Below, one piece after another: positions 8,421-51,992 of a DNA stretch of 64,000 bases. Source of the stretch: Cladocopium goreaui (taxonomy: Eukaryota; Sar; Dinophyceae; Suessiales; Symbiodiniaceae); assembly GCA_947184155.2 (NCBI GenBank), contig CAMXCT020001813.1:296907-360906 (forward strand), read 5' to 3'. Below the pieces are notes generated by a model. That model did not search any database, was not told where the DNA came from, and saw nothing but the letters and a program-made list of their open reading frames with translations. A program made the translations under genes and the position numbers. The first letter of the stretch is position 1. Every line of letters starts with the position of its first letter.

Positions 8421-8718
8421 TGTGTGTGTGTGTGACACATCTGTACAGATGTAAAACTTCTATTAATATATATCTATAAGCGGGGGGTCACCGGGGTCCC
8501 GGGGGGGGTCGGTGACCAACGAAGACACCTCCCCGGGACCCGTGAAAACGTACCCGCAGGACTTCGGTGGTGCACCTGGCCGCATTTAAGTCGCAGCTGG
8601 TGGCCACCGTAGTCCTATATATATATATACTCATCCTTAATTAGGAAACTAATCTAATTGCATGTTACAGGACTCAGTTCCTGACGGATCATATAATGAT
8701 CCATTCTTGTCTAGTGTG
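8421..8718 (+). mobile_element. R1: short pseudo-LTR-like unit, type-1 end
   Basis: It starts with (TG)n. The hairpin CATCTGTACAGATG (8438-8451) and TAAAACTTCT follow. The a-b-a'-b' structured core lies at 8480-8557, closed by GCGGG/CCCGC. It ends with GATCATATAATGATC and CATTCTTGTCTAGTG, shared with R2, R3, R4, R7 and R8. A third stem pairs GGACTTCGGTGG with CCACCGTAGTCC (G·U allowed). No ORF of its own. Confidence 0.75.
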
Positions 8719-9578
8719 ATTCCTATGGTGACTCCGACATGGTGCCATAGGGCCAATTGAGGCAACCCCAGTTGGGGTCAATGTCGACGACTTGAATTCC
8801 GAATTCACACATTTTAATTTAGTAATTCGTTCAAGTAAAGTGCAACAGCTGGCCTTACCGTTCTGCACCTTTGACGAAGTCCTGCGGCTCCTGTGGTCCC
8901 AGGGATTCCTCGCCACAATGCCTGTCTACCAGAGCGAAGCCGTTCGGAACATTCAGAAACTATGTTTTTACTGCAGCTGACAGGATTCATGACATGCACA
9001 AATGAAGGCAACAGGCATGTCCTTTTCCTGCAGGTGTGGTCTCTTTGGTTTTTGGTGAGGTGAAACATGTTGTGCACCTAATTCGCTGGAACTTGAAGGC
9101 CGTTATATGCCGATTGGGGCAAGAACTGACCACGGGCCTGGAGTGGCACAACGCACGACTTCTAGGTTTTAGGAACTGAATCCTGTTTTTTTTTTTGTGG
9201 TTTCATCAACTAATCCCCATTGGTCCCCTATCTCATGCGTTCTTCACTCCCCAGGTAGGTTGGCTCCGTAGCGTGCTGAGGTGTTTGTAGGTTTTCGCTG
9301 TGTCAGGTTGGTTCAGGCGCTTTCGTCCTTCCCCCCCTCCGCTGGTCTTGTTCCGTGTCCGTCGACCCTCCACTTTTCTTTTCCCTTGCCCTTTCAGGGT
9401 TTGCCCGCTCCGGGCCAGGTGTGTGGTGTTGGTGTTCTCTCCTTCCTCTTTTGCGTTCCCCTCTTCGCGTTCTGGTTAAGTAATTCTTCATCTCATCTTC
9501 AAGGTCATTTCACTTTCACTCCCCCTTCATCCTCATCTTCACCTCATCTTCCACGGCACCACCCTGCCCAAGGCAGGG
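8719..9578 (+). mobile_element. S1: non-autonomous internal segment
   Basis: The first ~480 bp matches the leader of element A (10178-10660): ATGGTGGC-type palindrome, ACACATTTTAA block, GTGAAACAT block. The rest is pyrimidine-rich and shared with S2 and S3. It ends in the hairpin CACCCTGCC-CAA-GGCAGGGTG (9560-9580), which runs straight into (TG)n. There is no credible ORF. It resembles a SINE- or MITE-like partner mobilised by the A-type enzyme; that role is inferred. Confidence 0.65.
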
Positions 9579-10177
9579 TGTGTGTGTGTAACATCTGAAC
9601 AGATGTAAAACTTCTATGACTCTAATCTTTTCACAATTGCAGGGGATCTTTTCACATTTGCAGGGGGCATGCGGCCATCATGCAAACGCATGCCAACGAA
9701 GCTATGCATGATGGTGGAAGCCGGGGCTGATCACCCTGGTGTACCTGCATTGTTGTGATTACCTGTTGTTCAGGGTTTGCTTCCGTTCAATTGTCAATGT
9801 CTGCTGATGGGAAGAGGCTCAACCCAAGAACCTCAATGTCAATTTATTTATTTATTTCTTCACGGTTGCCACAATCTGTTTTGCCTGCATCAGAACCTTC
9901 CTCAGTTTCTCGCCGAAACCATGTCGCCGACAGTATTTTGATTTTTTGAATTATTTCGCCGAAACCATGTCGCCGATGTATTTGGGGTATTTTGTCACAT
10001 CCACGTCGCCGATTCATTTATTTATTTTGATGACGATCTTGGCCATGGAAATCATTCAGGAGAACTTCTATTATTCGTGGGGTGCATCGTTATTTTCGTT
10101 GTTTCATATCTAATCTGCATGTTTCAGGATTCAGTTCCTGCCGGATCATATAATGATCCATTCTTGTCTAGTGTGAT
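9579..10177 (+). mobile_element. R2: left pseudo-LTR of element A
   Basis: About 590 bp nearly identical to R3 (22155-22757). Only a few substitutions and a short 6-bp-scale indel near the end are visible, which argues for a recent insertion. It begins with (TG)n, hairpin CATCTGAACAGATG (9592-9605) and TAAAACTTCT, holds the structured core at 9660-9748, and ends with the type-1 terminus. It contains several TCGCCGA motifs (9913-10010). Confidence 0.8.
9660..9748 (+). ncRNA. Pseudoknot-like structured RNA, A-type copy
   Basis: The closing stem is GCAGG (9660-9664) with CCTGC (9744-9748). Inside, a=GGCATGCG (9666-9673) pairs with a'=CGCATGCC (9687-9694). b=GCCATCATGCA (9674-9684) pairs with b'=TGCATGATGGT (9705-9715). 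The two pairings interleave. The a'-b' spacer is AACGAAGCTA. A further hairpin, CCGGGG with CCCTGG, follows. The element B copy keeps both helix lengths and the spacer with different stem sequence. Function is unknown: ribozyme, RT-recognition element or RNA switch are possible. Confidence 0.65.
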
Positions 10178-14942: not shown

Positions 14943-14987
14943 CTAGCCGCGTACTTGAAATCACCGGGCTCAAAAGCAGCCAACATT

Positions 14988-17714
14988 ATGCGAACTTTGG
15001 CCGTGGCTCACTCATGTATTCTTGTCCTTGCATTATTGACCCCCTTCACTTTGTCCCCTTCTGTTGATGTCTTTTTTGCTTTTCGGATGCTTCAAACTGT
15101 ATTGATGGGCCAGTATGTGTTATTACATCCACGAGCCAATCCGAAACTCCGGGCCTTGCTAAAAGGCACTCCGATGCAGAGTATTTTCTTTTGCTTGTCG
15201 TGGGACGACTTGACAGTCGCCCTCCAATGTTTCAAGCACCCTCAGGCGGTGTATATTCGCTTCTGCCATATTGCTAATTTTCAACCTAAGTTTTATGTGG
15301 GTTCCACCTCTTCCTTTGTTTTGGACCGTGAACACTCTCGCTATCGGAAATTTCTGCAAGTGCAACAAAACAAATTCGTGTTGGCCGAAGTCGCCTTACG
15401 GTTTTGGTGCAGATTTGACAATTTCTGGATGTGGTCTGTTTTTCCGATCTACACCAATAAATCCAACTTTTGGGCTTTGGAACAAGCCTTAATTCAATTG
15501 TGGCAACCTCGATTAAACACTCCGTTCATTTACCAGTTTTTCAATTGCCGAAAGGGACTCATCGCGCGTACCAAATTTTCCGACTCCCGACAATTTGGAG
15601 CATTCTCTCTGTGGCGGAAACTCCGTTGGCGATCTACACCCCATCATGTTCGACATGCTCTTCACAGTCCTCTTTTCCATCGACGAGTACAACTCTGGGA
15701 GATCATTCAGGATTTGGGCAGTAACTCCGTCCGACGCTTCCACATGGAGAAGAAACTCCGATCCAATGAAATTGGGGCCCAAGGATGCTATTTTATTCGA
15801 CGTCTTGCCAACAACCTAGGCGAACCTCAGAGGTCGTACGCAATCAATGCCATTGATCGAGCCTTGACCTTCTGGAAGGCCAAACGAGTCAGGAAACCGG
15901 TTCCTCTTCGTGCACCTTGGTTACTAGGCCCCAACTGGACCCGTGACCTTCGACAGCTGCTCATTTCCCACGTTCATCGAACTCGATGTTACAACACCAC
16001 ATTGCAGACTCCTTCCACCGGGATTGTCTTCACAAAGTTCCCCTCGGCTATGGACAGCTTGTGCAACCACAAAGAAGCCGCTACCAAATGGGCTGATGGC
16101 GAAACCCCAAAGTGTGCCTGTGATGCCTTGCGACCTCATGCTCTTCATGATCCCCATCCTGATCACCACTTGGTCCTGGACGGCGACAACCTACATTTCG
16201 ATGATGGCCCACACACATCCATTGCGACGGGTTCGCTTCAAAACAAAATCTTCCCACCTTCCAAAGAAATCCAGACATCCCTTCGCCTTGCTCTGCGGAC
16301 GTGGACTACCCGGAACTCACTCCCTTCATTACAAAAGACCCATATTGATGAGCTTTGGCACCGCTCTATTCAATCCCACTACAACACCCTCCACAATCAC
16401 ATCACACACAAAGACATCGGACGCTTCAAACGTCTCTTTCCAGATGCCGTCTTCCACAACGAGGACAAGCGAGCTACATCCCTACGAATCTACTGCCCCG
16501 TACTCTACTTCCAGTGCCTCACCACCACCTTCGCCGACCCGTTGGTATTTCGAAAACTGGAGCACAACCCAAATGACATCATCGAGAAGACCATCGCCGA
16601 GATTAATCATCAATTTGGCAAAGCATACCCATGGGCACTTGGTGCTGGACGAGACCTGCCGAATGCCTACGTTCTCCCCAAACGGAAGAAACAGTTTAAG
16701 GCTGGGCGACCCATTGTCAGCTTCTTCACGGCACCTTTCCGACCCATGTTGAACTGCACCGCCAAACTGATCTACAACCTCCTACCCCAAGCGTTTCCCC
16801 ACAACCTGGCAAGGGGTGATGTATTTGATCTCATCAAGCTCCTCAAGGACACCGACTTTGATTCGCTCCCTACTCCCCGAATACACAACCAAGATCTTGC
16901 GGGTTTTTTCACAAGCATCGACACTGACCGCTTCATTGCTAGCTGGCGACTGACCTTGCAGTTCCTCTCGACTCTCATGAGTACCGACCCCGACGAGATC
17001 ATCTCCGTGAAGGCAACTCCGGGCAACACCACAGGCGATGTAGTCAAAGGCCGCATGTGCCGTACACTCAATGTGACCAGGAAGATCTTTATTCGGGACA
17101 TTGAACGCATCATCCTTATGTCTTTGAAGATGACCCAATTTTCTATTGGCACTACGGTTTTTGAACAAATCCGTGGATCCCCTATGGGCTCCCCACTGAG
17201 TCCAGCATTGTGCATGATGGTTGTCGCACTCTCTGAAGAAATCTGGTACCGAACCTACCGCACCACCCTCAGCACCATGGATCTTACAGCTCGCCTCCTT
17301 CGCTATGTGGACAACAGACTGTGCTTGTCTGATCCCTCCTGGGACTACGAAATCCGCTTCGCCAATTTCCTTCACCCGGAGTTCTACGGTCACCCCATCA
17401 TTTTGGAAACGGAACCGGGCCAGGAGTTCTTGGGTTTTTGCATCGAGTTCGAACCCTTTGCCCTTCGCTACAGCCCTCCGCGCGACTTCAACCAGGTCAT
17501 GGCGCCATTCTCCGCATCACCTCTGGCCGTCCAACTTTCGGGTTTTGTTTCACGACTATTTCTGGTCGCCAAATGTGCGCACCCTGCACACGAACGAACA
17601 CGAGGTTTTGCCGCATTGCACCGTTTGTACAGAACTGCAGGTTTTACCGAGTCCGATTTAGCTACTGCTGCCAAGCCGATCCGTCAATATTTGCACGTTT
17701 CTTCATTGTGGTAA
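14988..17714 (+). CDS. Element A ORF3: N-terminal GIY-YIG endonuclease + reverse transcriptase (Penelope-like)
   Basis: 908 aa, uninterrupted. GIY-YIG nuclease at about residues 88-180: VYIRF then KFYVGSTSS, a conserved Arg in REHSR, and LEQALIQLWQPRLN with the catalytic-type Glu. A central CxC motif (CAC, about 376-378) follows. RT at about 480-850: fingers segment LPKRKKQF and GRPIVSF, motif A NQDLAGFFTSID, motif B GSPMGSPLSP (730-739), and motif C YVDNRL (773-776), where the usual second Asp is Asn. Nuclease-CxC-RT order is that of the permuted N-terminal-EN Penelope-like clade. The enzyme would nick target DNA and prime reverse transcription there. The element B homologue has the same order and the same DN motif. 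The first ATG matching B's start was chosen; a TTG at 14955 extends it by 11 residues. Confidence 0.85.
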   Translation: MRTLAVAHSCILVLALLTPFTLSPSVDVFFAFRMLQTVLMGQYVLLHPRANPKLRALLKGTPMQSIFFCLSWDDLTVALQCFKHPQAVYIRFCHIANFQPKFYVGSTSSFVLDREHSRYRKFLQVQQNKFVLAEVALRFWCRFDNFWMWSVFPIYTNKSNFWALEQALIQLWQPRLNTPFIYQFFNCRKGLIARTKFSDSRQFGAFSLWRKLRWRSTPHHVRHALHSPLFHRRVQLWEIIQDLGSNSVRRFHMEKKLRSNEIGAQGCYFIRRLANNLGEPQRSYAINAIDRALTFWKAKRVRKPVPLRAPWLLGPNWTRDLRQLLISHVHRTRCYNTTLQTPSTGIVFTKFPSAMDSLCNHKEAATKWADGETPKCACDALRPHALHDPHPDHHLVLDGDNLHFDDGPHTSIATGSLQNKIFPPSKEIQTSLRLALRTWTTRNSLPSLQKTHIDELWHRSIQSHYNTLHNHITHKDIGRFKRLFPDAVFHNEDKRATSLRIYCPVLYFQCLTTTFADPLVFRKLEHNPNDIIEKTIAEINHQFGKAYPWALGAGRDLPNAYVLPKRKKQFKAGRPIVSFFTAPFRPMLNCTAKLIYNLLPQAFPHNLARGDVFDLIKLLKDTDFDSLPTPRIHNQDLAGFFTSIDTDRFIASWRLTLQFLSTLMSTDPDEIISVKATPGNTTGDVVKGRMCRTLNVTRKIFIRDIERIILMSLKMTQFSIGTTVFEQIRGSPMGSPLSPALCMMVVALSEEIWYRTYRTTLSTMDLTARLLRYVDNRLCLSDPSWDYEIRFANFLHPEFYGHPIILETEPGQEFLGFCIEFEPFALRYSPPRDFNQVMAPFSASPLAVQLSGFVSRLFLVAKCAHPAHERTRGFAALHRLYRTAGFTESDLATAAKPIRQYLHVSSLW

Positions 17715-17887
17715 AATCCAGAACCGCCCTGCCGCTTGCGCTTACGTTTCATTGTTCTCATCCTGCTGAACGTTTCACCTATTCGGGCCACACGTTAATT
17801 TATTTGATATTGGAGTATTGCGTTCTCAGCTGGCTCACCCTCAAACTCGGCTTCATTTACTTCTTGGCCCACTTTCGACGTTTTGTG

Positions 17888-18520
17888 ATGGCTTCCTCGC
17901 CTCCTACTACGTCAATTCCGATTCAAGAACCAGTTTTTCTTCAATTTCTTCACGATGTCCACCATGCTTACCTTCTACTACATCGAGCAATGGCGCTACT
18001 TCCACCCACCCTCATTCCCAACATTGAACCTTCCCCTCTTCCCAGCACAGACGTATGGAATCAACCTGATGGGCTACGACCGCATTACTCGGACCAGACC
18101 AACGACTTTATTGACAATGCCCACATCCCGTCGCCGGATATCGTGGAGGACGAGGCACTTATGGATGAACTCTTGGAAACCCATCTCCCTGAACCACACC
18201 ACCACGTTGCCGCTCCGTCACCTGAAGTCCTACCTGCACCCTCGAAGCTTTCTACCAGAACACCATCACCGCCGACTCGCAAACAAAAAGCCAAATCAGC
18301 TCCCAAAGCGCCTGCAAAACGTCGTCGCCGACTTGACCAATCCCGATCCCGCTCCTCGAGCCCACTGTCACTCTGGACTTCTGAAGACAAACAGAAACTA
18401 CGCACTTTGAAGGCGGACGAGAAGTCTCGATTTTCATGGCGGGTGATTTCGACCAAGATGGGCAAGTCCGAGGAAGATGTTCGCTCTATGTGGAATAAGA
18501 TTAAAGACAAACTTGGCTGA
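17888..18520 (+). CDS. Element A ORF4: Myb/SANT-like DNA-binding protein
   Basis: 210 aa from the ATG at 17888. The N-terminal two-thirds is Pro/His-rich and disordered-looking. A basic stretch (APAKRRRRLDQSRSRS) could act as a nuclear signal. The C-terminus is a single Myb/SANT-like helix bundle: LWTSEDKQKLRTLK, then FSWRVISTKMGKSEEDV, then MWNKIKDKL, with tryptophans at the expected spacing. Such domains bind DNA, so this could guide the element to chromatin or regulate its transcription (inferred). An open frame extends upstream to 17438 in overlap with the RT ORF, but its composition there is a shadow. It is preceded by a T-rich spacer of about 170 bp. Confidence 0.65.
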   Translation: MASSPPTTSIPIQEPVFLQFLHDVHHAYLLLHRAMALLPPTLIPNIEPSPLPSTDVWNQPDGLRPHYSDQTNDFIDNAHIPSPDIVEDEALMDELLETHLPEPHHHVAAPSPEVLPAPSKLSTRTPSPPTRKQKAKSAPKAPAKRRRRLDQSRSRSSSPLSLWTSEDKQKLRTLKADEKSRFSWRVISTKMGKSEEDVRSMWNKIKDKLG

Positions 18521-22046: not shown

Positions 22047-22154
22047 CTGAGCGCGGCTCTGTACATTAGCACCGGACAGCCTTTTGTATTTGAATAATCT
22101 TGCCGACATTCACAGCGATGGTCTTCCAAAAATCAAACCCCGCTACACGCGGGG

Positions 22155-22757
22155 TGTGTGTGTGTAACATCTGAACAGATGTAAAACTTCTATGACTCTA
22201 ATCTTTTCACAATTGCAGGGGATCTTTTCACATTTGCAGGGGGCATGCGGCCATCATGCAAACGCATGCCAACGAAGCTATGCATGATGGTGGAAGCCGG
22301 GGCTGATCACCCTGGTGTACCTGCATTGTTGTGATTACCTGTTGTTCAGGGTTTGCTTCCGTTCAATTGTCAATGTCTGCTGATGGGAAGAGGCTCAACC
22401 CAAGAACCTCAATGTCAATTTATTTATTTATTTCTTCACGGTTGCCACAATCTGTTTTGCCTGCATCAGAACCTTCCTCAGTTTTTCGCCGAAACCATGT
22501 CGCCGACAGTATTTTGATTTTTTGAATTATTTCGCCGAAACCATGTCGCCGATGTATTTGGGGTATTTTGTCACATCCACGTCGCCGATTCATTTATTTA
22601 TTTTGATGACGATCTTGGCCATGGAAATCATTCAGGAGAACTTCTATTATTCGTAGGGTGCATCGTTATTTTCGTTGTTTCATATCCATATCTAATCTGC
22701 ATGTTTCAGGATTCAGTTCCTGCCGGATCATATAATGATCCATTCTTGTCTAGTGTG
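22155..22757 (+). mobile_element. R3: right pseudo-LTR of element A
   Basis: Near-identical partner of R2. Start hairpin at 22168-22181, structured core at 22236-22324, type-1 end at about 22757. Comparison with R2 shows only scattered changes (for example TTTCTCGCC versus TTTTTCGCC), consistent with young age. Confidence 0.8.
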
Positions 22758-23045
22758 TGACACATCTGTACAGATGTAAAACTTCTATTAATATATATCT
22801 ATAAGCGGGGGGTCACCGGGGTCCCGGGGGGGTCGGTGACCAACGAAGACACCTCCCCGGGACCCGTGAAAACGTACCCGCAGGACTTCGGTGGTGCACC
22901 TGGGCGCATTTAAGTCGCAGCTGGTGGCCACCGTAGTCCTATATATATATATATACTCATCCTTAATTAGGTAACTAATCTAATTGCATGTTACAGGACT
23001 CAGTTCCTGACGGATCATATAATGATCCATTCTTGTCTAGTGTGT
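22751..23045 (+). mobile_element. R4: short R unit, same class as R1
   Basis: Near-identical to R1. Start hairpin CATCTGTACAGATG (22763-22776), core at 22805-22881 with GCGGG/CCCGC closing pairs, type-1 end. It abuts R3 and R5 with only (TG)n between, so it is a solo R. Confidence 0.75.
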
Positions 23046-23354
23046 GTGTGTGTGTGTACCATCTGAACAGATGTAAAACTTCTTATCTTGCAGGGGGTCA
23101 CCGGGGTCCCGGGGGGGTCGGTGACCAACGAAGACACCTGCCCGGGACCCGTGTAAACGTACCTGCGGGACTGTGGTGGTGCACCTGGGCGCATTTAAGT
23201 CGCAGCTGGTGGCCACCACAGTCCCATATATATATATATATTATATATATATATATATTTTTTTTCATTTCTCCTGTTAGGTTTTACTGGGGTGTTTTTT
23301 GCACGTCCGATGCATTCCACATCAACAATTCGATAAGATGTTTCTGAGCAAGTG
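23040..23354 (+). mobile_element. R5: short R unit with type-2 end
   Basis: Start hairpin CATCTGAACAGATG (23060-23073), core at 23090-23166, and a long third stem pairing GGGACTGTGGTGG with CCACCACAGTCCC. The 3' end differs from R1-R4: GCATTCCACATC then TTCTGAGCAAGTGTG. That end is shared with R6 and with the element B repeats on the other strand. Confidence 0.75.
23090..23166 (+). ncRNA. Pseudoknot-like structured RNA, short-R copy
   Basis: Closing stem GCAGG/CCTGC (GCGGG/CCCGC in R1, R4, R7 and R8, a compensatory change). a=GGTCACCG pairs with a'=CGGTGACC. b (from GGGTCCCGGG) pairs with b' (CCCGGGACCC and flanking bases). The spacer begins AACGAAG. The order a-b-a'-b' is the same as in the A and B copies. 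Confidence 0.6.
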
Positions 23355-24191
23355 TGTCACTCATACCGTTGTCCGACAAGGTGGTATGAGCCCTTCGGGG
23401 AAAGCCTTTCTAGGCTAAAAATTGACGGTAACACGATGTCTGAATTTACACTTTTGAATTAGTAATTCGTTTAAGTACAGTGAACAGCCAGCCTTTTCTT
23501 CCTTGTCTCACCCGTCGATGTCGTTTGGTTGAACAACTGCCCGCTGTACCAGGGACTCACCATTCGTTTGGATTGACACTGCATAGTTGAAGGTCGCGAC
23601 AACAATCTTTCCTTTCTCAAGAGACAGCCATTCCGCAGCCATTTTCACATGAGTTCACAGGCAACAGGACATCCTTGCAGGTATGGTACTTCTTTCTTTT
23701 ATGGTCGTTGGTGAGGTTCAATTGTGCACGTAATTCAAGGGTTGAACACGTAAGCTGTCCAGAGGGTTGTGACTTGAACTCTGGCCATTGAGCCTAACGA
23801 GGGGACTCCTGCATGCTACTGTGGATGCATCAATTAACTAGTTCCCCATGGGTCCCTTTTCTCATGTGTTTCTGCGTTCTCCTCCCTTCAGGTAGGTTGG
23901 GTCCTGCGCGTGCCGAGGTAGGCGTAGGTTTTCGCAGTGTTAGGTTGGTTCAGGCGCTTCTGTCCTTCCCCCCCCTCCGCTGGTCTTGTTCCGTTGTCCG
24001 TCGGCCTCCGCTTTTCTTTTCCCTTGCCTTTTCAGGGTTTGCCCGTTTCGGGCCAGGTGTGTCGTGTTGGTGTTCTCTCTGTCCCTCTTCTTTTGCGTTC
24101 CCCTCTTCGCGTCCTGGTTAGGTATTGTTCATTTCATTTTCATTGTCATCCCACTTTCATTTTCATTTCATCTGCCCCGCCGCGGTGGGGC
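23355..24191 (+). mobile_element. S2: non-autonomous segment with type-2 leader
   Basis: It begins with a leader also present just inside the element B left repeat (both contain GTGGCATGAACCC/GTGGTATGAGCCC followed by TTCGGGGAA). The 3' half is the pyrimidine-rich segment shared with S1 and S3. It ends in hairpin GCCCCGCC-GC-GGTGGGGC (24174-24191), then (TG)n. No credible ORF. Confidence 0.65.
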
Positions 24192-24487
24192 GTGTGTGTG
24201 TACCATCTGAATAGATGTAAAACTTCTTATCTTGCAGGGGGTCACCGGGGTCCCGGGGGGGTCGGTGACCAACGAAGACACCTCCCCGGGACCCGTGTAA
24301 ACGTACCTGCGGGACTGTGGTGGTGCACCTGGGCGCATTTAAGTCGCAGCTGGTGGCCACCACAGTCCCATATATATATATTATATATATATTTTTTTTC
24401 ATTTCTCCTGTTAGGTTTTACTGGGGTGTTTTTTGCACGTCCGATGCATTCCACATCAACAATTCGATAAGATGTTTCTGAGCAAGT
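24186..24487 (+). mobile_element. R6: short R unit with type-2 end
   Basis: Near-copy of R5. Start hairpin CATCTGAATAGATG (24204-24217), core 24234-24310, ending TTCTGAGCAAGTGTG. Confidence 0.75.
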
Positions 24488-24792
24488 GTGTGTGTGTGTA
24501 CCGTCTGAATAGACGTAAAACTTCTTATACTTTATATATTTATATATGCGGGGGGTCACCGGGGTCCCTGGGAGGTCGGTGACCATCGAAGACACCTCCC
24601 GGGGACCCGTGTAAACATACCCGCGGGACTGTGGTGACGCACCTGGGCGCAATTGTAAGACGCAGCTGGTGGTCACCATAGTCCCATATATATATATATA
24701 TATTTCATCCATATCTGAGTAACTAATCTAATCTGCATGTCACAGGACTCAGTTCCTGCCGGATCATATAATGATCCATTCTTGTCTAGTGT
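24485..24792 (+). mobile_element. R7: short R unit, type-1 end, covarying hairpins
   Basis: The start hairpin is CGTCTGAATAGACG (24502-24515), an A-T to G-C paired change relative to the other units. The third stem changes to GGTGAC/GTCACC where R5 has GGTGGT/GGCCACC, again keeping pairing. Confidence 0.75.
24548..24624 (+). ncRNA. Pseudoknot-like structured RNA, variant with ATCGAAG spacer
   Basis: Closing stem GCGGG/CCCGC. a/a' are unchanged. The b helix carries T and A where R6 has G and G, and b' compensates (wobble or Watson-Crick). The spacer is ATCGAAG here and in R8, against AACGAAG elsewhere. Confidence 0.55.
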
Positions 24793-25681
24793 GATTTCCA
24801 TGGTGGCTCCGACATGGTGCCATGGAGCCAATTGAGGCAACCCTCTTCAGGGTGAGTGTTGACAGTCTTGAATTCTGAATTCACACATTTTAAATTGGTA
24901 ATTCATCTAAGTAAATCGCAACAGTCGGCCTTTCTGTTTTGCACCTTTTGTGATGTCCCGCGCTTCCGGCTGTCCCTTGAGATCCTTTGTGAATTGCATT
25001 CTTTGCAGCGAGAAGCCGTGCTAAACGTCGGAAACCTCCTTTTTGCAGCTCTTTTACAGCGACATTGCATCATGTCTCGACACTGGAAACAGGCAGGCAC
25101 ACGACTTGCAGGTGTGGTATTCCTTTCTTTTGATGGTTGTCTGGTGAGGTGAAACATTTTGTGCATCTAATTCGATGGAATTTGGAAGCTGTCTTATGCC
25201 ATTGCCGCACGACTTGACCACGGTCCCGGTGCAGGGAATAATCGCACGACATTTTAGGCAGTTAGGGACTGAATCCTGTTTGTTGTTTGGTTTTGTTTTC
25301 ACCAACTAGTTCCCCATTGGTCCCCTATCTCATGCTTCCTTCCCCCCCCAGGTAGGTTGGCTCCGTCGCGTGCTGAGGTTTTTGTAGGTTTTCGCTGTGT
25401 TAGGTTGGTTCAGGCGCTTCCGTCTTCCCCCCCCTCCGTTGGTCTTGGTCCGTGTCCGTCGACCCTCCGCTTTTTCTTTTCCCTTGCCTTTTCAGGGTTC
25501 GCCCGTTCCGGGCTAGGTGTGTTGGTGTGTGTTTTCTCCTTCCCTCTTCTTTTGCGTTCCCCTCTTCGCGTCCTGGTTAAGTAACTTTCATCTCATTTTC
25601 ACTCTCATCTCATCTTTCATCCCCTGTTCATCCTCATCTTCATCTCATGTTTACGCGCACCACCCTGCCGGAGGCGGGGTG
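24793..25681 (+). mobile_element. S3: non-autonomous internal segment
   Basis: The leader is closely similar to element A (10178-10650) and S1; the pyrimidine-rich tail is shared with S1 and S2. The terminal hairpin is CACCCTGCC-GGA-GGCGGGGTG (25661-25681), with a G·T where S1 has A-T, immediately followed by (TG)n. Confidence 0.65.
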
Positions 25682-25992
25682 TGTGTGTGTACCGTCTGAA
25701 TAGACGTAAAACTTCTTATACTTTATATATTTATATATGCGGGGGGTCACCGGGGTCCCTGGGAGGTCGGTGACCATCGAAGACACCTCCCGGGGACCCG
25801 TGTAAACGTACCCGCGGGACTGTGGTGACGCACCTGGGCGCAATTGTAAGACGCAGCTGGTGGTCACCATAGTCCCATATATATATATATATTTCATCCA
25901 TATCTAAGTAACTAATCTAATCTGCATGTCACAGGACTCAGTTCCTGCCGGATCATATAATGATCCATTCTTGTCTAGTGTGTGTGTGTGTC
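25675..25992 (+). mobile_element. R8: last R unit of the array
   Basis: Near-copy of R7. Start hairpin CGTCTGAATAGACG (25693-25706), core 25739-25815, type-1 end, then (TG)n at 25979-25992, after which unique intron sequence resumes. Confidence 0.75.
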
Positions 25993-32218: not shown

Positions 32219-33305
32219 TGTCTACTACAAAAGCTTGCAAAAACCAGTTCCCAGTACTAATCTGTACTACAAAGCTTGCACAAAACACGTTCCAGTACTA
32301 CTTTGTACTACAAAGCTTGCACAAAACACTTCCCAGTACTACTTTGTACTACAAAGCTTGCATAAAACACTTCCCTGTACTACTTTGAACTACAAAGCTT
32401 GCACAAAGCAATTCCCAATACTACTTTGTACTACAAAGCTTACACAAACTACTTCCCAGTAACCGATGTCTACTACAAAAGCTTGCAAAAACCACTTCCC
32501 AGTACTACTTCGTACTGCAAAGCTTGCACAAAACACGGTCCAGTACGACTTTGTACTGCAAAGCTTGCACAAACTACTTCCCAGTAACCGATGTCTACTA
32601 CAAAAGCTTGCAAAAACCACTTCCCAGTACTACTTCGTACTACAAAGCTTGCACAAAGCACTCCCCAGTACTACTTTGTACTACAAAGCTTGCACAAACC
32701 ACTTCCCAGTACTACTTTGTAATACAAAGCTTGCGCAAAGCACTTCCCAGTACTACTTTGTACTACAAAGCTTGCACAAACCACTTCCCAGTACTACTTC
32801 GTACTGCAAAGCTTGCACAAACTACTTCCCAGTAACCGATGTCTACTACAAAAGCTTGCAAAAACCACTTCCCAGTACTACTTCGTACTACAAAGCTTGC
32901 ACAAAGCACTCCCCAGTACTACTTCGTACTGCAAAGCTTGCACAAAGCACTTCCCAGTACTACTTCGTACTACAAAGCTTGCAGAAAACACGTTTCAGCT
33001 TTGTACTGCAGTGCTCGCACAAACCACTTCCCAGTACTACTTCGTACTACAAAGCTTGCACAAAGCACTCCCCAGTACTACTTTGTACTACAAGGCTTGC
33101 ACAAAGCACTTCCCAGTACTACTTTGTACTGCAAAGCTTGCGCAAACCACTTCCCAGTACTACTTTGTACTACAAAGCTTGCACAAAGCACTCGCCAGTA
33201 CTACTTCGTACTACAAAGCTTGCAGAAAACACGTTCCAGTACTACTTTGTACTACAAAGCTTGCAGAAAACACTTCCCAGTACTACTTTGTACTACAAAG
33301 CTTGC
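32219..33305. repeat. 41-bp satellite, about 26 copies
   Basis: The unit contains CTTCCCAGTACTACTTTG and TACTACAAAGCTTGCAC. About 26 head-to-tail copies vary by a few bases. Some units carry a variant with AACCGATGTCTACTACAAAA, giving a higher-order pattern. Because 41 is not a multiple of 3 and the unit lacks stops, long open frames exist in all three forward frames. They are not taken as genes. Confidence 0.9.
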
Positions 33306-33307
33306 AC

Positions 33308-46502: not shown

Positions 46503-47026
46503 CCCACACACACACACACACTTGCTCAGAACAGTCTTTGCGAATTTTGATGTGGAATGCATCTTACGTGCAAAAACACTCCAATTAAACCTGACAGGAA
46601 AGAAGGATCGAAATGTAACATATCCATCTGAACCAAATCGTTCCCTCTATTGACAGCTGAGAAATACAGATTGCGAAAACCGTACAGGCACTGAGATGAC
46701 ATGGAAAGAAAACTGAGCGTTTGGGTTTGGTTTTGACGGAAAAAGGAATCGGCAAGGTGGTTCTTGGGTTAGCCACGTCCCATCACGGAAACAAAAGCTG
46801 ATGCAGGTACGTCCAGCTGGCCAAGCTGGATATCCCATTTCACTGGTAGCTTCGTTGGAGACAGTCCCAGTGAAATGCTGTGTCCCCCTGCTTGAAATGA
46901 AATGAAATAGTGCCGACAAAAATCAGGGAAGTTTTCCATCGTTTCCCGCGTCAGAAACAAAATGAAGAAGGACCAGGTAAAATCGGAAGTAGAAGTTTTA
47001 CATCTTTTCAGATGGTTCACACACAC
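46503..47026 (-). mobile_element. Element B downstream pseudo-LTR
   Basis: On the minus strand it starts with (TG)n, hairpin CATCTGAAAAGATG (47001-47014) and TAAAACTTCT, and ends TTCTGAGCAAGTGTGTG. It is about 90% identical by eye to 51450-51992, with several indels. The type-2 end is shared with R5 and R6. Confidence 0.75.
46803..46891 (-). ncRNA. Pseudoknot-like structured RNA, B-type copy (one mismatch)
   Basis: Same layout as the upstream B copy. The a' strand here is CTGTCTCC against a=GGACACAG, leaving one mismatch in the 8-bp helix. The closing stem, b helix and AACGAAGCTA spacer are intact. Confidence 0.55.
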
Positions 47027-47138
47027 GCCCTGCTGACGCAGGGCTTTTTTGATACATGGACAGGTGAGTCACGCTCTGATACGGTCAGCTGGTATCGGAT
47101 TATGTAATTAAAAAACAGTGACAAGTTAATTACCAACC

Positions 47139-49997
47139 TCACTCAAGAGTTAACGTGCAGCTCGCGCCCGATCTAGTCGGAGATCTCCGAGATGTCATCC
47201 AGTTCATGATTCTGAGCATGTTGGGCAAGAGTCTGCGAAGTGATAGACAAATGGCTGGCAAGGTGGGCCAGGTCGATTGCCGAGAAAAGCTGGATGGGAT
47301 TGGCATTTGGATCTGCGGAAAGAGTTTCGAGCTTCTCAAGGTTCGGTGCATTATCTGCGTTGAAATGGTGTGGAGTTCCTCATTGGGAAAACCAGCCAAA
47401 GTATACAAGTGAATTAATTGGTCGAGCCCTTGTCGAACACGAAAGTCGGGAAATGCCCCTTTGACAACGATGTGGCAACGAGAACGAAATCCGCTAAGAA
47501 GCACTTTGGGTGGAGAAGCCGAGAACGGAGACAAGACTTGTGATATGTTGGTGGGACCTTGATAGATCAGTTCCAATGGTTTTGTTTCCAGCATGAAACC
47601 GAGGAATCCTTCATCCAGCAGTACTTCATATGGTGGAAGGTCACGAAGACGTGAGTCACCAAAGATGAGGCGGTTGTCAGCATATGTGATATGTCGGATG
47701 AATAAGTGGTGATTGCAAAGAATTTGTTTGAAGTTGATGGACCAGATTTGTTTGCTGATGGAGACAACCATGAGGCAGAGTGCTGGAGATAGTGGACTGC
47801 CCATGGGGCTGCCACTGTCGAATGCATTTTTGGCCCAGAGCAAACGTCTGCATTTTCAATGCTGACTTGAGTACAGTAAATCAGGAACATCTTTGATGAT
47901 GATCTTTCTGGTGACGTTAAGTCGACGGAAGGTGCGTCCCTTGATGATGTCGCCTGGATTGTTCGTGTTTCCTGGATAAACCGAGAATGCTTCGTTGTCA
48001 GAAACATCCATGTGAGGTCTCAGGAAATCCAAGAGCATGAACCATGCACCGATGAAGCGATCTTGATCAATGCTGTTGAAGAAACCAGCAAGGTCTTGAT
48101 TGACCAGAATGAGATCTGCGTCAACGGGTGCTGATTTGAGGATGGATAGGAGTGTGTATACATCCCCGGAAGCAAAGTGATTTGGACATGCCACTGGGAT
48201 CAGTTGAAAGATCATTCTGGCGAGGATGTTGATCATAGGACGAAACGGGGAGTCCACAAAGGAGATGATGGGTCGGCCACTGCGAAATTCTTTCTTCCTT
48301 TTTGCCAGGATATAACCAGCTGGCAATTGTCGTCCGTGTCCTACCGCCCAAGGGTAGGGTTTTCCATGTTGTCGGTGTAGAAGATCGACAAGCGATGTGA
48401 CGATGGATTCAGGATCTTGGGAGACCGGTTCGAAAATGGAGGGATCCTGAAAAGTTTTTTCAATGGCTTGGTGTACAAGCACGGGCAGTAGATTCTCAAA
48501 GAAGAGGCTTGTTTGTCTTCACAATGGAAGATAGCGCCCTCGAAGGTTTTTTGAAATGAGTTGATGGATGATTTCGTGATGTGACAAGTGACGTGTTTGG
48601 AATGCCCTGTCCACAGATGTTGGCTGAAATCGGAGATCTCTGAGTTTGGCATGGACGGTAGGCCATTTCGCTTTGTCCAGCCGTGAAGCCCAAGTTTGAG
48701 CTGGTTTTGGTATTCCTTTTTGGAAGGAAATACCTTGTTCAACAAGGAGCCTTCGGCAATGACAGCCAACTCCTCTGGTACGAGTGAGTGAAGTAGTGAA
48801 CCTGCTAAGACCCAGTGAGGATCTGGTGGATCGAGAGCAGCTGTTTTGAAAGGTTCCCACTTTTTGCAACAACACGTTGCAGGTTGTGTGGTGTACCAGT
48901 CCGCGATGGCCTGCTTGTGATTGCAGAGTTGGTCCAGAACAGCTGCATGTTTGATGAAGACCATCTTGAAAGATGGTGTGTGGCATGGAACTTGGTATGG
49001 AAGAACTTGGAGGTGCCACTTTCGTAGGAACTGTTTCAATTGTTGTTGGAGATTGGGAGTGAGGGACCATGGGGCACGGAGTGCCGTTGCTCGTGGAGCA
49101 GGTTTTCCTTTGCACCATTTGATGGACGCATCGATTGCATTCAGTGACAGGGTGCGGAAGGGCTCCTGGATGTTGCTTGCCAAACGACGGAGAGCATAGC
49201 AGAGGGTGAGACCCCCATCATTGGACCGCAGCATTTTGGTCTGTTCAAATCTGGCTCTCGTGTTGGACCCTAAAGCGTGGATGATGGTCCAAGGTTCCAG
49301 TCGGTTTTGAAACCGTTCTGATGTCAAGATCTGACGAACAAGTGTTGGAGTGAACTTGTGTTTGGCTCGACGCCATAACGTGGCCAGACCAAACTGAGCG
49401 TTTGTGTTCAAGGCAAGTTTCTTGAGGATGTCTTTCTTGGGGTGAAAGAATTGGCAAATGAAGGGATCTGGGTTGCCATTCTTGAATGATGGCCATTTCA
49501 AGACTGCGATAGTCGGCTCTTTCAGTGTATATTGGGATGGGTGCCCAGATATACAGGTTGTCATGTTCCCGCCAATAGCGTAGGGCAAGCTCGGCTTGTA
49601 CAAGTCGTTCATAGGTGAGTTGAAGATACTTTCTGGAGCGACTGTACTCCCTGTCAAGGGTATGATGCATAGTTGGGCCGATGTAGAACTTGGGCTGCAT
49701 GTTCACAATGTGGGTGAAACGGATGTAGACGCTTTGAGACTGGAAAAATGGTGTTGAGAAAAGGTTGTGGGCATGAAGTGTTGATCCCCACACATGTGTG
49801 AGGTCGGTACATCCTTCCAAAATTGACTTCAGCTTCTGGTTCGGTCGAAGACCATGGATTACGGCAAGCACCATCATGCAGGTTTGGATGATGCGAAAGC
49901 CTTGAAAAAGGTGAACGCTAAGAGTCATGGTGAAGGGTGTCAAAATGTAGATGATAAGGATCATCGAATGGAGAATCTGAAGATGGGATTGAAGCAC
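47139..49997 (-). pseudogene. Element B GIY-YIG + reverse transcriptase, frameshifted
   Basis: The homologue of element A ORF3 lies in at least four frame segments: 49997 to ~49500 (GIY-YIG; VYIRF, KFYIGPT, LEMAIIQEWQP), ~49540-48450 (linker with CxC, TCCCKKW), ~48450-47860 (fingers, LAKRKKEF, motif A NQDLAGFFNSID), and ~47840-47139 (motif B GSPMGSPLSPALC, motif C YADNRL). Start region, domain order and the Asn in motif C all match element A. The frameshifts make it non-functional as read. Sequencing error at one site is possible, but three or more breaks point to decay. Confidence 0.8.
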
Positions 49998-50033
49998 TTT
50001 GTGCTTAAGCTTTCTGCGAAGCCAGGGAGGTAG

Positions 50034-51376: not shown

Positions 51377-51449
51377 CATTCACATTCTGCTTAGAAAAGC
51401 ATTCCCCGAAGGGTTCATGCCACCTTGACGAATCCAGCATGAATCACAC

Positions 51450-51992
51450 ACTTGCTCAGAACAGTCTTTGCGAATTTTGATGTGGAATGCATCTTACGTG
51501 CAAAAACACTCATTAAACCTGACAGGAAAGGGTCGATGACAAGATCCGAGCAGGATCGAAATGTAACATATCCATCTGAACCAAATCGTTCTCCCTCTAT
51601 TGACAGCTGAGAAATACAGATTGCGAAAACCGTACAGGCACTGAGATGACATGGAAAGAAAACTGAGCGTTTGGGTTTGGTTTTGACGTAATTTGAAAAA
51701 GGAATCGGCAAGGTGGTTCTTGGGTTAGCCACGTCCCATCACGGAAACAAAAACTGATGCAGGTACGTCCAGCTGGCCAAGCTGGATATCCCATTTCACT
51801 GGTAGCTTCGTTGGACACAGTCCCAGTGAAATGCTGTGTCCCCCTGCTTGAAATGAAATGAAATAATGCCGACAAAAATCAGGGAAGTTTAACATCTTTT
51901 CCCGTGTCAGAAATAAAATGAAGAAGGACCAGGTAAAATCGGAAGTAGAAGTTTTACATCTTTTCAGATGGTTCACACACACACACACGCAC
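51450..51992 (-). mobile_element. Element B upstream pseudo-LTR
   Basis: On the minus strand it begins at (TG)n (51972-51988) with hairpin CATCTGAAAAGATG (51957-51970) and TAAAACTTCT, and ends TTCTGAGCAAGTGTGTG at about 51450. It is then followed by the leader that is also found after R5 in the main array. Direct repeat partner of 46503-47026. Confidence 0.75.
51759..51847 (-). ncRNA. Pseudoknot-like structured RNA, B-type copy (intact)
   Basis: Minus strand: closing GCAGG/CCTGC. a=GGACACAG and a'=CTGTGTCC (8 bp, perfect). b=CATTTCACTGG and b'=CCAGTGAAATG (11 bp, perfect). There are 2 nt between b and a', and the spacer is AACGAAGCTA. A palindromic CCAGCT-AGCTGG hairpin follows before the closing strand. 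Layout and spacer match the A copy although nearly all stem bases differ. Confidence 0.7.

Follow-up and report, generated by a model that had tools for sequence, protein, structure and literature searches.

We analysed a 64,000-nucleotide stretch of DNA (the window) from the dinoflagellate Cladocopium goreaui (assembly GCA_947184155.2, contig CAMXCT020001813.1, positions 296,907 to 360,906 of the forward strand). It carries two Penelope-like elements (PLEs), element A on the plus strand and element B on the minus strand, each flanked by pseudo-long terminal repeats (pseudo-LTRs), together with short repeat units designated R. The A and B repeats and the R units share one compact fold, which we call the module and which occurs ten times in the window (twice each in A and B, six times in R). 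It is near certain that the module is a structured RNA acting in cis in the pseudo-LTRs of dinoflagellate PLEs. It constitutes a new RNA family of a known kind, namely a structured RNA of retroelement terminal repeats.

Architecture of the module and its pairing in the window

The module is an H-type pseudoknot with a closing stem, its helices following the order a-b-a'-b' inside a stem P0 (GCRGG/CCYGC). After P0 and a single G comes helix a with 8 bp (GGNNNNNG/CNNNNNCC). Helix b, 11 bp long in A and B and 14 bp long in R, abuts helix a at a zero-length junction, and 0-2 nt separate it from a'. A joining strand of 10 nt, A[AT]CGAAGNNA, lies 3' of a' and leads into b', which in A and B is followed by a hairpin c. 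Next comes (G/A)TA and then P0', so that the unpaired G and the GUA of the RNA both adjoin P0. Across families from the host genome, helix a has 8 bp. The length of helix b is mostly between about 10 and 14 bp; it frequently carries a bulge and is weaker in a few families. The joining strand is nearly invariant (A[AT][CT]GAAGNNN), and the third hairpin c is often present. Positions are collected in Table 1.

An initial annotation had already described the a-b-a'-b' order, the zero-length a-b junction, the A[AT]CGAAG strand and the GC[AG]GG/CC[TC]GC closing stem, all of which we recovered at this place and in ten copies. Its 8-bp helix is correct, but the 11 to 13 bp given for the other helix must be replaced by 11 and 14 bp, and the B layout ends at 51792 rather than 51803. 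The parts of the module that it named hold; hairpin c, an upstream hairpin (H1) and the PLE context had been missed.

Table 1. Positions of the module copies, of hairpin H1 and of the carrier elements in the window.
Feature	Position	Strand	Remark
A copy 1	9660-9748	+	pseudoknot module with hairpin c
A copy 1, P0	9660-9664/9744-9748	+	
A copy 1, helix a	9666-9673/9687-9694	+	
A copy 1, helix b	9674-9684/9705-9715	+	
A copy 1, joining strand (L3) AACGAAGCTA	9695-9704	+	
A copy 1, hairpin c	9721-9739	+	GTA precedes P0'
A copy 2	22236-22324	+	identical to A copy 1
B copy 1	51759-51847	-	
B copy 2	46803-46891	-	one helix a mismatch
R copy	8480-8557	+	P0 GCGGG/CCCGC
R copy	22805-22881	+	P0 GCGGG/CCCGC
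R copy	23090-23166	+	P0 GCAGG/CCTGC; one helix b mismatch
R copy	24234-24310	+	P0 GCAGG/CCTGC
R copy	24548-24624	+	variant b helix (G-C to U-G); L3 ATCGAAG; ATA replaces GTA
R copy	25739-25815	+	variant b helix; L3 ATCGAAG
H1 hairpin plus AAAACTTCT	9592-9615	+	directly after (TG)n
Further H1 copies	8438, 22168, 22763, 23060, 24204, 24502, 25693	+	
Further H1 copies	46991, 51947	-	
Element A pseudo-LTR, upstream	9573-10175	+	98.5% identical to 22149-22757
Element A pseudo-LTR, downstream	22149-22757	+	
Element A open frame with reverse transcriptase	14943-17711	+	GIY-YIG-like N-terminal part by motif only
Element B pseudo-LTR, upstream on minus strand	51445-51982	-	92.8% identical to 46515-47026
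Element B pseudo-LTR, downstream	46515-47026	-	
Element B reverse transcriptase frames, interrupted	47142-50033	-	39-44% identical to A

Comparison of A with B revealed that 13 of the 19 pairs in helices a and b differ, always on both sides, while under A's layout all 19 are paired in B. Thus, the stems have diverged with pairing kept, as the initial annotation had proposed, although six pairs are the same and its wording that nearly every stem base differs goes too far. Among 200,000 shuffled versions of B, none formed more than 16 of the 19 pairs, and because B itself forms all 19 in A's layout, the module is not a product of chance. When P0 and hairpin c are included, 17 of 30 pairs have changed on both sides and none on one side only. 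In this 30-pair count, which rests on three distinct rows and draws its weight from the number of double changes, 98.9% of the cells are paired; none of 500 shuffles equalled it, and sliding the partners by 1-3 columns lowered pairing to 29-38%. Among the R copies, the third P0 pair alternates between A-U and G-C, and one pair of helix b between G-C and U-G.

A covariance model built from A and B only recovered all six R copies (E values from 4e-8 to 5e-6) and found no eleventh place in the window up to E 10. When no sequence core is demanded, the layout fits perfectly at 144 places, eight of them module copies and 136 in simple-repeat arrays of the window; the two copies missing from this set (23090 and 46803) have one mismatch each. 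In 40 block-shuffled windows, the bare layout had no perfect place.

Covariation across the host genome and the strand under selection

A search of the host genome (1,165,616,438 bases in 6,202 contigs) with the core pattern GCAGG..CCAACGAAG..GTACCTGC gave 3,332 exact matches, and the reversed control none. A sample of 78 loci plus the window yielded 65 distinct instances, from which L206, with a mis-set start, was dropped. They fall into 33 clusters at 75% linkage; two of these, both drawn from L154 and one of them carrying an insert, have an identical helix a. Because the pattern prescribes P0 and the final CC of a', these positions are ascertained; pairs 3-8 of helix a as well as helices b and c are free to vary. 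With one representative per cluster, helix a forms 8 of 8 pairs in 29 of the 33 clusters and 7 of 8 in the other four. Its pairs 4 and 7 are Watson-Crick in every cluster, and all four pair types are used. Exchange of a' between clusters reduced pairing from 7.88 of 8 with the own strand to 4.77 of 8. Helix b behaves likewise: the own duplexes have a mean energy of -16.8 kcal/mol and the swapped ones of -6.1 kcal/mol, and the own helix beats the 5% tail of the swaps in 30 of the 33 clusters. The weakest own duplex reaches -3.9 kcal/mol, and many families have a bulge or mismatches inside helix b.

Broken copies are far from being as common as paired ones, since helix a is fully paired in 57 of the 64 distinct instances. 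A wider set of 94 instances with 49 stem types gave at least 7 pairs in helix a for 44 types and 3-4 pairs for the remaining five, which may have decayed or been given a wrong start. The genome sample thus shows strong covariation, and neither of the two outcomes that would have refuted the initial annotation occurred. Among 20 relatives of A, drawn from 40 scored genome matches, the module is nearly constant, while the spacer between H1 and the module has been exchanged in most and the downstream sequence in two. Because its neighbours are exchanged while it stays, the module is sharply bounded and more than a piece of shared flanking DNA.

The strand on which selection acts can be read from the third pair of P0. 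A-T occurs in 3,332 copies and A-C in nine, the A-C pattern being slightly stricter. G at this pair was found in 112 copies, 75 of them with G-C, and among 30 fetched loci with G, the opposite base is C in 21 and T in nine. Wobble is thus tolerated and its mirror mismatch is not, which indicates that the sense RNA is under selection. Selection on DNA, as a cruciform, would be suited by the mismatches of helix a, which show no strand preference (11 G.U, 12 A.C and 21 others among 752 cells). The third P0 pair speaks against it, however, and the ordered, fixed-length joining strands of a pseudoknot do not make a cruciform, so that we consider this explanation hardly credible. The covariation over the sampled clusters, the held-out model test and the sense-strand bias at one P0 pair together support the earlier proposal of selection on RNA structure, and taken by itself, the claim that the module is a selected pseudoknot is as good as settled.

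The unpaired core varies unevenly. The C of CGAA is replaced by U in 196 copies, some of them within multiplied families. Against the 3,332 canonical copies, the G of CGAA is changed to A in 29 scattered copies, its first A to G in 11, and the G of GUA to A in 29. In the loops of hairpin c, the palindromes TGATCA and TGGCCA account for 15 and three of 35 stem types, a GACG or AACG tetraloop for 11 and other loops for six. The palindromic loops are possible kissing loops judging by their sequence, an idea that brought no gain.

Penelope-like carriers, short units and flanking repeats

The assignment of A and B to the PLEs is based on two features: a reverse transcriptase of the TERT/PLE class, for which the top fold matches of the A protein are telomerase TERT chains, and direct repeats flanking the frames (Table 1). 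A GIY-YIG endonuclease domain may be present in the N-terminal part, where a VYIRF..QPKFYxG motif is conserved in A and B by eye; Pfam gave no match, and a model of this part alone, with a pLDDT (predicted local distance difference test) score of 32, was of no use. Durusdinium trenchii is among the 120 homologues listed, in agreement with the dinoflagellate host assumed in the initial annotation. A sequence search of the PDB had no match, and no reverse-transcriptase loci were found in IMG/VR. Reverse transcriptases usually have YxDD at the active site. That of A (residues 787-792 of frame 14943-17711) reads YVDN, and in an alignment of 20 sequences R, Y, V and D of the active-site motif are invariant and N nearly so. 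A further frame of element A (17333-18517, plus strand) has a weak terminal match to a Myb-like DNA-binding domain (E 0.0025, below the Pfam cut-off).

Three stretches between modules of other families were examined. L273 encodes a reverse transcriptase 44% identical to A between paired modules. In L274, likewise between paired modules, a 32% match extends over 99 residues of the N-terminal part. In L272 (G000:C2), a reverse transcriptase of 607 aa is only 24% identical to A (E 6e-42); the modules of this locus have AATGAAG, are devoid of the long hairpin c and recur as the same module in many near-identical copies. The module is present in deeply diverged elements and has persisted where its carriers have lost most of their resemblance in sequence.

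The R repeats, 279-294 bp in length, each join the module to a PLE 3' end of one of two kinds, A-type in four units and B-type in two, their modules being nearly the same. The module is thus retained in short non-autonomous units. H1 occurs ten times in the window, once ahead of each of the ten pseudoknots, and the modules start 30-123 nt past its first base. Of 30 oriented genome loci, 21 have H1 preceded by (TG)n and nine lack this arrangement. Both the A/R array and element B pass into (TG)n at their outer ends (8438, 25971, 51970, 46527) on either side, a sequence arrangement that suggests insertion targeted to (TG)n.

Several other features accompany these repeats. Directly before (TG)n at five of the ten H1 copies lies a second covarying element, a GC-rich hairpin of variable sequence and the same shape (~9562-9578, 22138-22154, 24174-24191 and 25663-25679 on the plus strand, ~47027-47044 on the minus strand), which is found at other genome loci too. 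Downstream of the module, TTTGYTTCCG..TGATGGGANGNGGCTNAACCCAAGAACC (9776-9832 and 22352-22408 on the plus strand; ~51715-51750 on the minus strand, a short form in B) is common to the A and B repeats, and none was seen in the R units. An array of about 26 copies of a 41-bp tandem repeat occupies 32223-33307.

Possible functions and relation to known structured RNAs

Searches for known RNAs were negative. Rfam 15 had no match at gathering across the window, and when the limit was relaxed to E 10 around one A, one B and two R copies, no ribozyme family came up among the weak matches. No hammerhead strand CTGANGA (CUGANGA in RNA) is present in the four repeat regions, and with no Rfam match either, a hammerhead is rejected, as the initial annotation had anticipated. 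The same holds for the non-circularly permuted hammerhead, in which the CUGANGA, GAAA and cleavage blocks are reordered (PMC10085705): the A, B and R regions lack its CUGANGA strand. The CGAA had also been taken as a hint of a ribozyme like that of hepatitis delta virus (HDV). This did not survive, because the 0-2 nt between b and a' leave no room for P3/L3; moreover, the tighter constraint on the G of CGAA than on its C weighs against an HDV-like role for the C. Our own HDV-like descriptor, which had no positive control, found nothing in the four regions. A splice acceptor at TTTGCAG/G was discarded as well, since its AG is lost in the GCGGG copies while the pair is kept. Of the pattern scans of IMG/VR, one gave a chance match, another none and a further one was unspecific among the matches listed. 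A scan of bacterial genomes gave 22 matches; the layout could be fitted to ten sites of the fetched loci, none of them like the window copies, and the best (L128) had 6+10 pairs. In the open literature on PLEs and on dinoflagellate ribozymes and retrotransposons, no report of the module appeared at the title and abstract level, so that an earlier mention may exist.

If the module is a ribozyme, it would be a new class. Our tentative first choice, held at somewhat less than even weight and by analogy, is that it is a self-cleaving ribozyme standing where other PLEs keep hammerheads. It comes first because of the parallels with PLE hammerheads and with the short internally deleted elements (SIDEs) that are parasites of R2, and because of the tight unpaired core. 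Slightly more doubtful is the fuller scenario, in which a new self-cleaving class, a P0-enclosed pseudoknot with an AACGAAG strand, replaced the hammerhead in the pseudo-LTRs of dinoflagellate PLEs, multiplied with them to thousands of copies and was borrowed by short non-autonomous elements. The elements form tandems or partial tandems whose units are separated by (TG)n, so that one transcript would run through several modules. Cleavage at each would release unit-length RNAs to be copied by the element's reverse transcriptase, a role proposed for hammerheads in retrozymes and perhaps theirs in other PLEs too; copying might be primed where (UG)n meets (TG)n target DNA. Catalysis would be centred on the joining strand, facing the P0-a/GUA junction, with the G of CGAA the likelier key base than the C.

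Several points weigh against self-cleavage. Neither the window nor the copies match any known ribozyme in Rfam, the sole HDV-like hint is the very C that varies to U, also in multiplied families, and the module lies inside the element, downstream of H1, rather than at its 5' end. In the one PLE tested in vitro, insertion did not depend on hammerhead cleavage (PMC11167929). Furthermore, a docking or packaging RNA would equally yield a conserved structure with a tight core.

PLE reverse transcriptases belong to a TERT-like class. The main alternative sees in the module a place where the element's own enzyme docks, for template selection and ribonucleoprotein assembly. We regard this as unlikely, though worth serious weight. 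R modules joined to A-type and to B-type 3' ends are nearly the same, so that the module, unlike the 3' end, does not follow the partner enzyme. In addition, the in vitro study hypothesises that the binding motif lies within the first 172 nt of the open reading frame and finds the full pseudo-LTR dispensable (PMC11167929). Also improbable is a signal for processing or expression that host factors would recognise, neither catalytic nor bound by the reverse transcriptase. Such a signal for 5' untranslated region (UTR) translation, export or end protection would fit the position in the 5' pseudo-LTR, several hundred nucleotides before the frames and beside H1. The compact fold could also block exonucleases, and one of the weak Rfam matches over an R copy is to a ribosomal frameshift element (HIV_FS2, E 3.5, below the cut-off). 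Yet the module is also retained in short non-autonomous units, and protection of RNA ends hardly seems to call for so tightly constrained a joining strand.

The zero-length a-b junction had been read as a possible sign that the two helices are alternative states of a switch. The junction is real, and the energies of P0+a+c and P0+b+c lie close together in A, at -30.4 and -31.1 kcal/mol, and further apart in B, at -26.4 and -30.2 kcal/mol. However, helices a and b share no bases and can both form. Rigid-helix sampling is coarse and, by a strict clash rule that rejects even the classic coaxial pseudoknot (control 0 of 600,000), speaks to side-by-side arrangements only; it accepted both helices of A and B in 1,114 of 600,000 trials. 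R with 8+14 closed pairs could not hold both in this model (0 of 600,000), whereas opening of one pair (16 or 106) or two (1,632) allowed it in the same number of trials; a second, laxer coarse geometry test likewise could not fit both helices of R with all 8+14 pairs. The bulges or mismatches of helix b in many families would relax the strain. A switch is therefore not forced by the geometry, and we think it very unlikely.

One genome offers a natural test set of 33 sampled clusters with natural covariation, natural core variants and both autonomous and non-autonomous carriers. If the module cleaves, it would represent a new catalytic RNA fold and show that one ribozyme was replaced by another as a lineage of retroelements evolved. 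Should cleavage not occur, the module may instead be an RNA to which a TERT-like reverse transcriptase binds, a finding of relevance to the origin of telomerase's RNA component. Few classes of self-cleaving ribozymes are known, nine by the count of a 2020 review, which also calls the role of PLE hammerheads unknown (PMC7761336).

Among known systems, the PLE hammerheads share element class and place with the module. Minimal type I hammerheads in PLE pseudo-LTRs were reportedly described by Cervera and de la Pena in 2014 and by Lunse in 2017. The module differs from them in its pseudoknot fold and its other core. Two further sources likewise place minimal hammerheads in the pseudo-LTRs of other PLEs (PMC7761336; PMC11167929). 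Animal retrozymes carry one structured RNA per repeat unit, and these units measure about 300 bp (PMC7229834); the R repeats are near this unit size, but the animal units bear hammerheads instead.

Like the module, the HDV ribozyme is a two-helix pseudoknot with CGAA in a short joining strand. The HDV-like ribozymes of R2 and its SIDEs resemble the module further in being retained, along with the 3' end, by derivatives that are non-autonomous, since nothing but the ribozyme and the 3' UTR is left in R2 SIDEs (PMC3774820). In contrast to them, the module has no P3, L3 or P1.1, possesses the extra closing stem P0 and varies at the C of CGAA.

In the pistol ribozyme, a hairpin loop is fully paired to a downstream strand, with a zero-length junction and then a hairpin. 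The module shares this topology, but its helices are longer, it has no Rfam match and its enclosing stem is placed 5' of the pseudoknot. Finally, the R2 5' protein-binding pseudoknot and the telomerase RNA pseudoknot are both served by a reverse transcriptase, in telomerase by the related TERT, and it is in this respect only that we liken the module to them.
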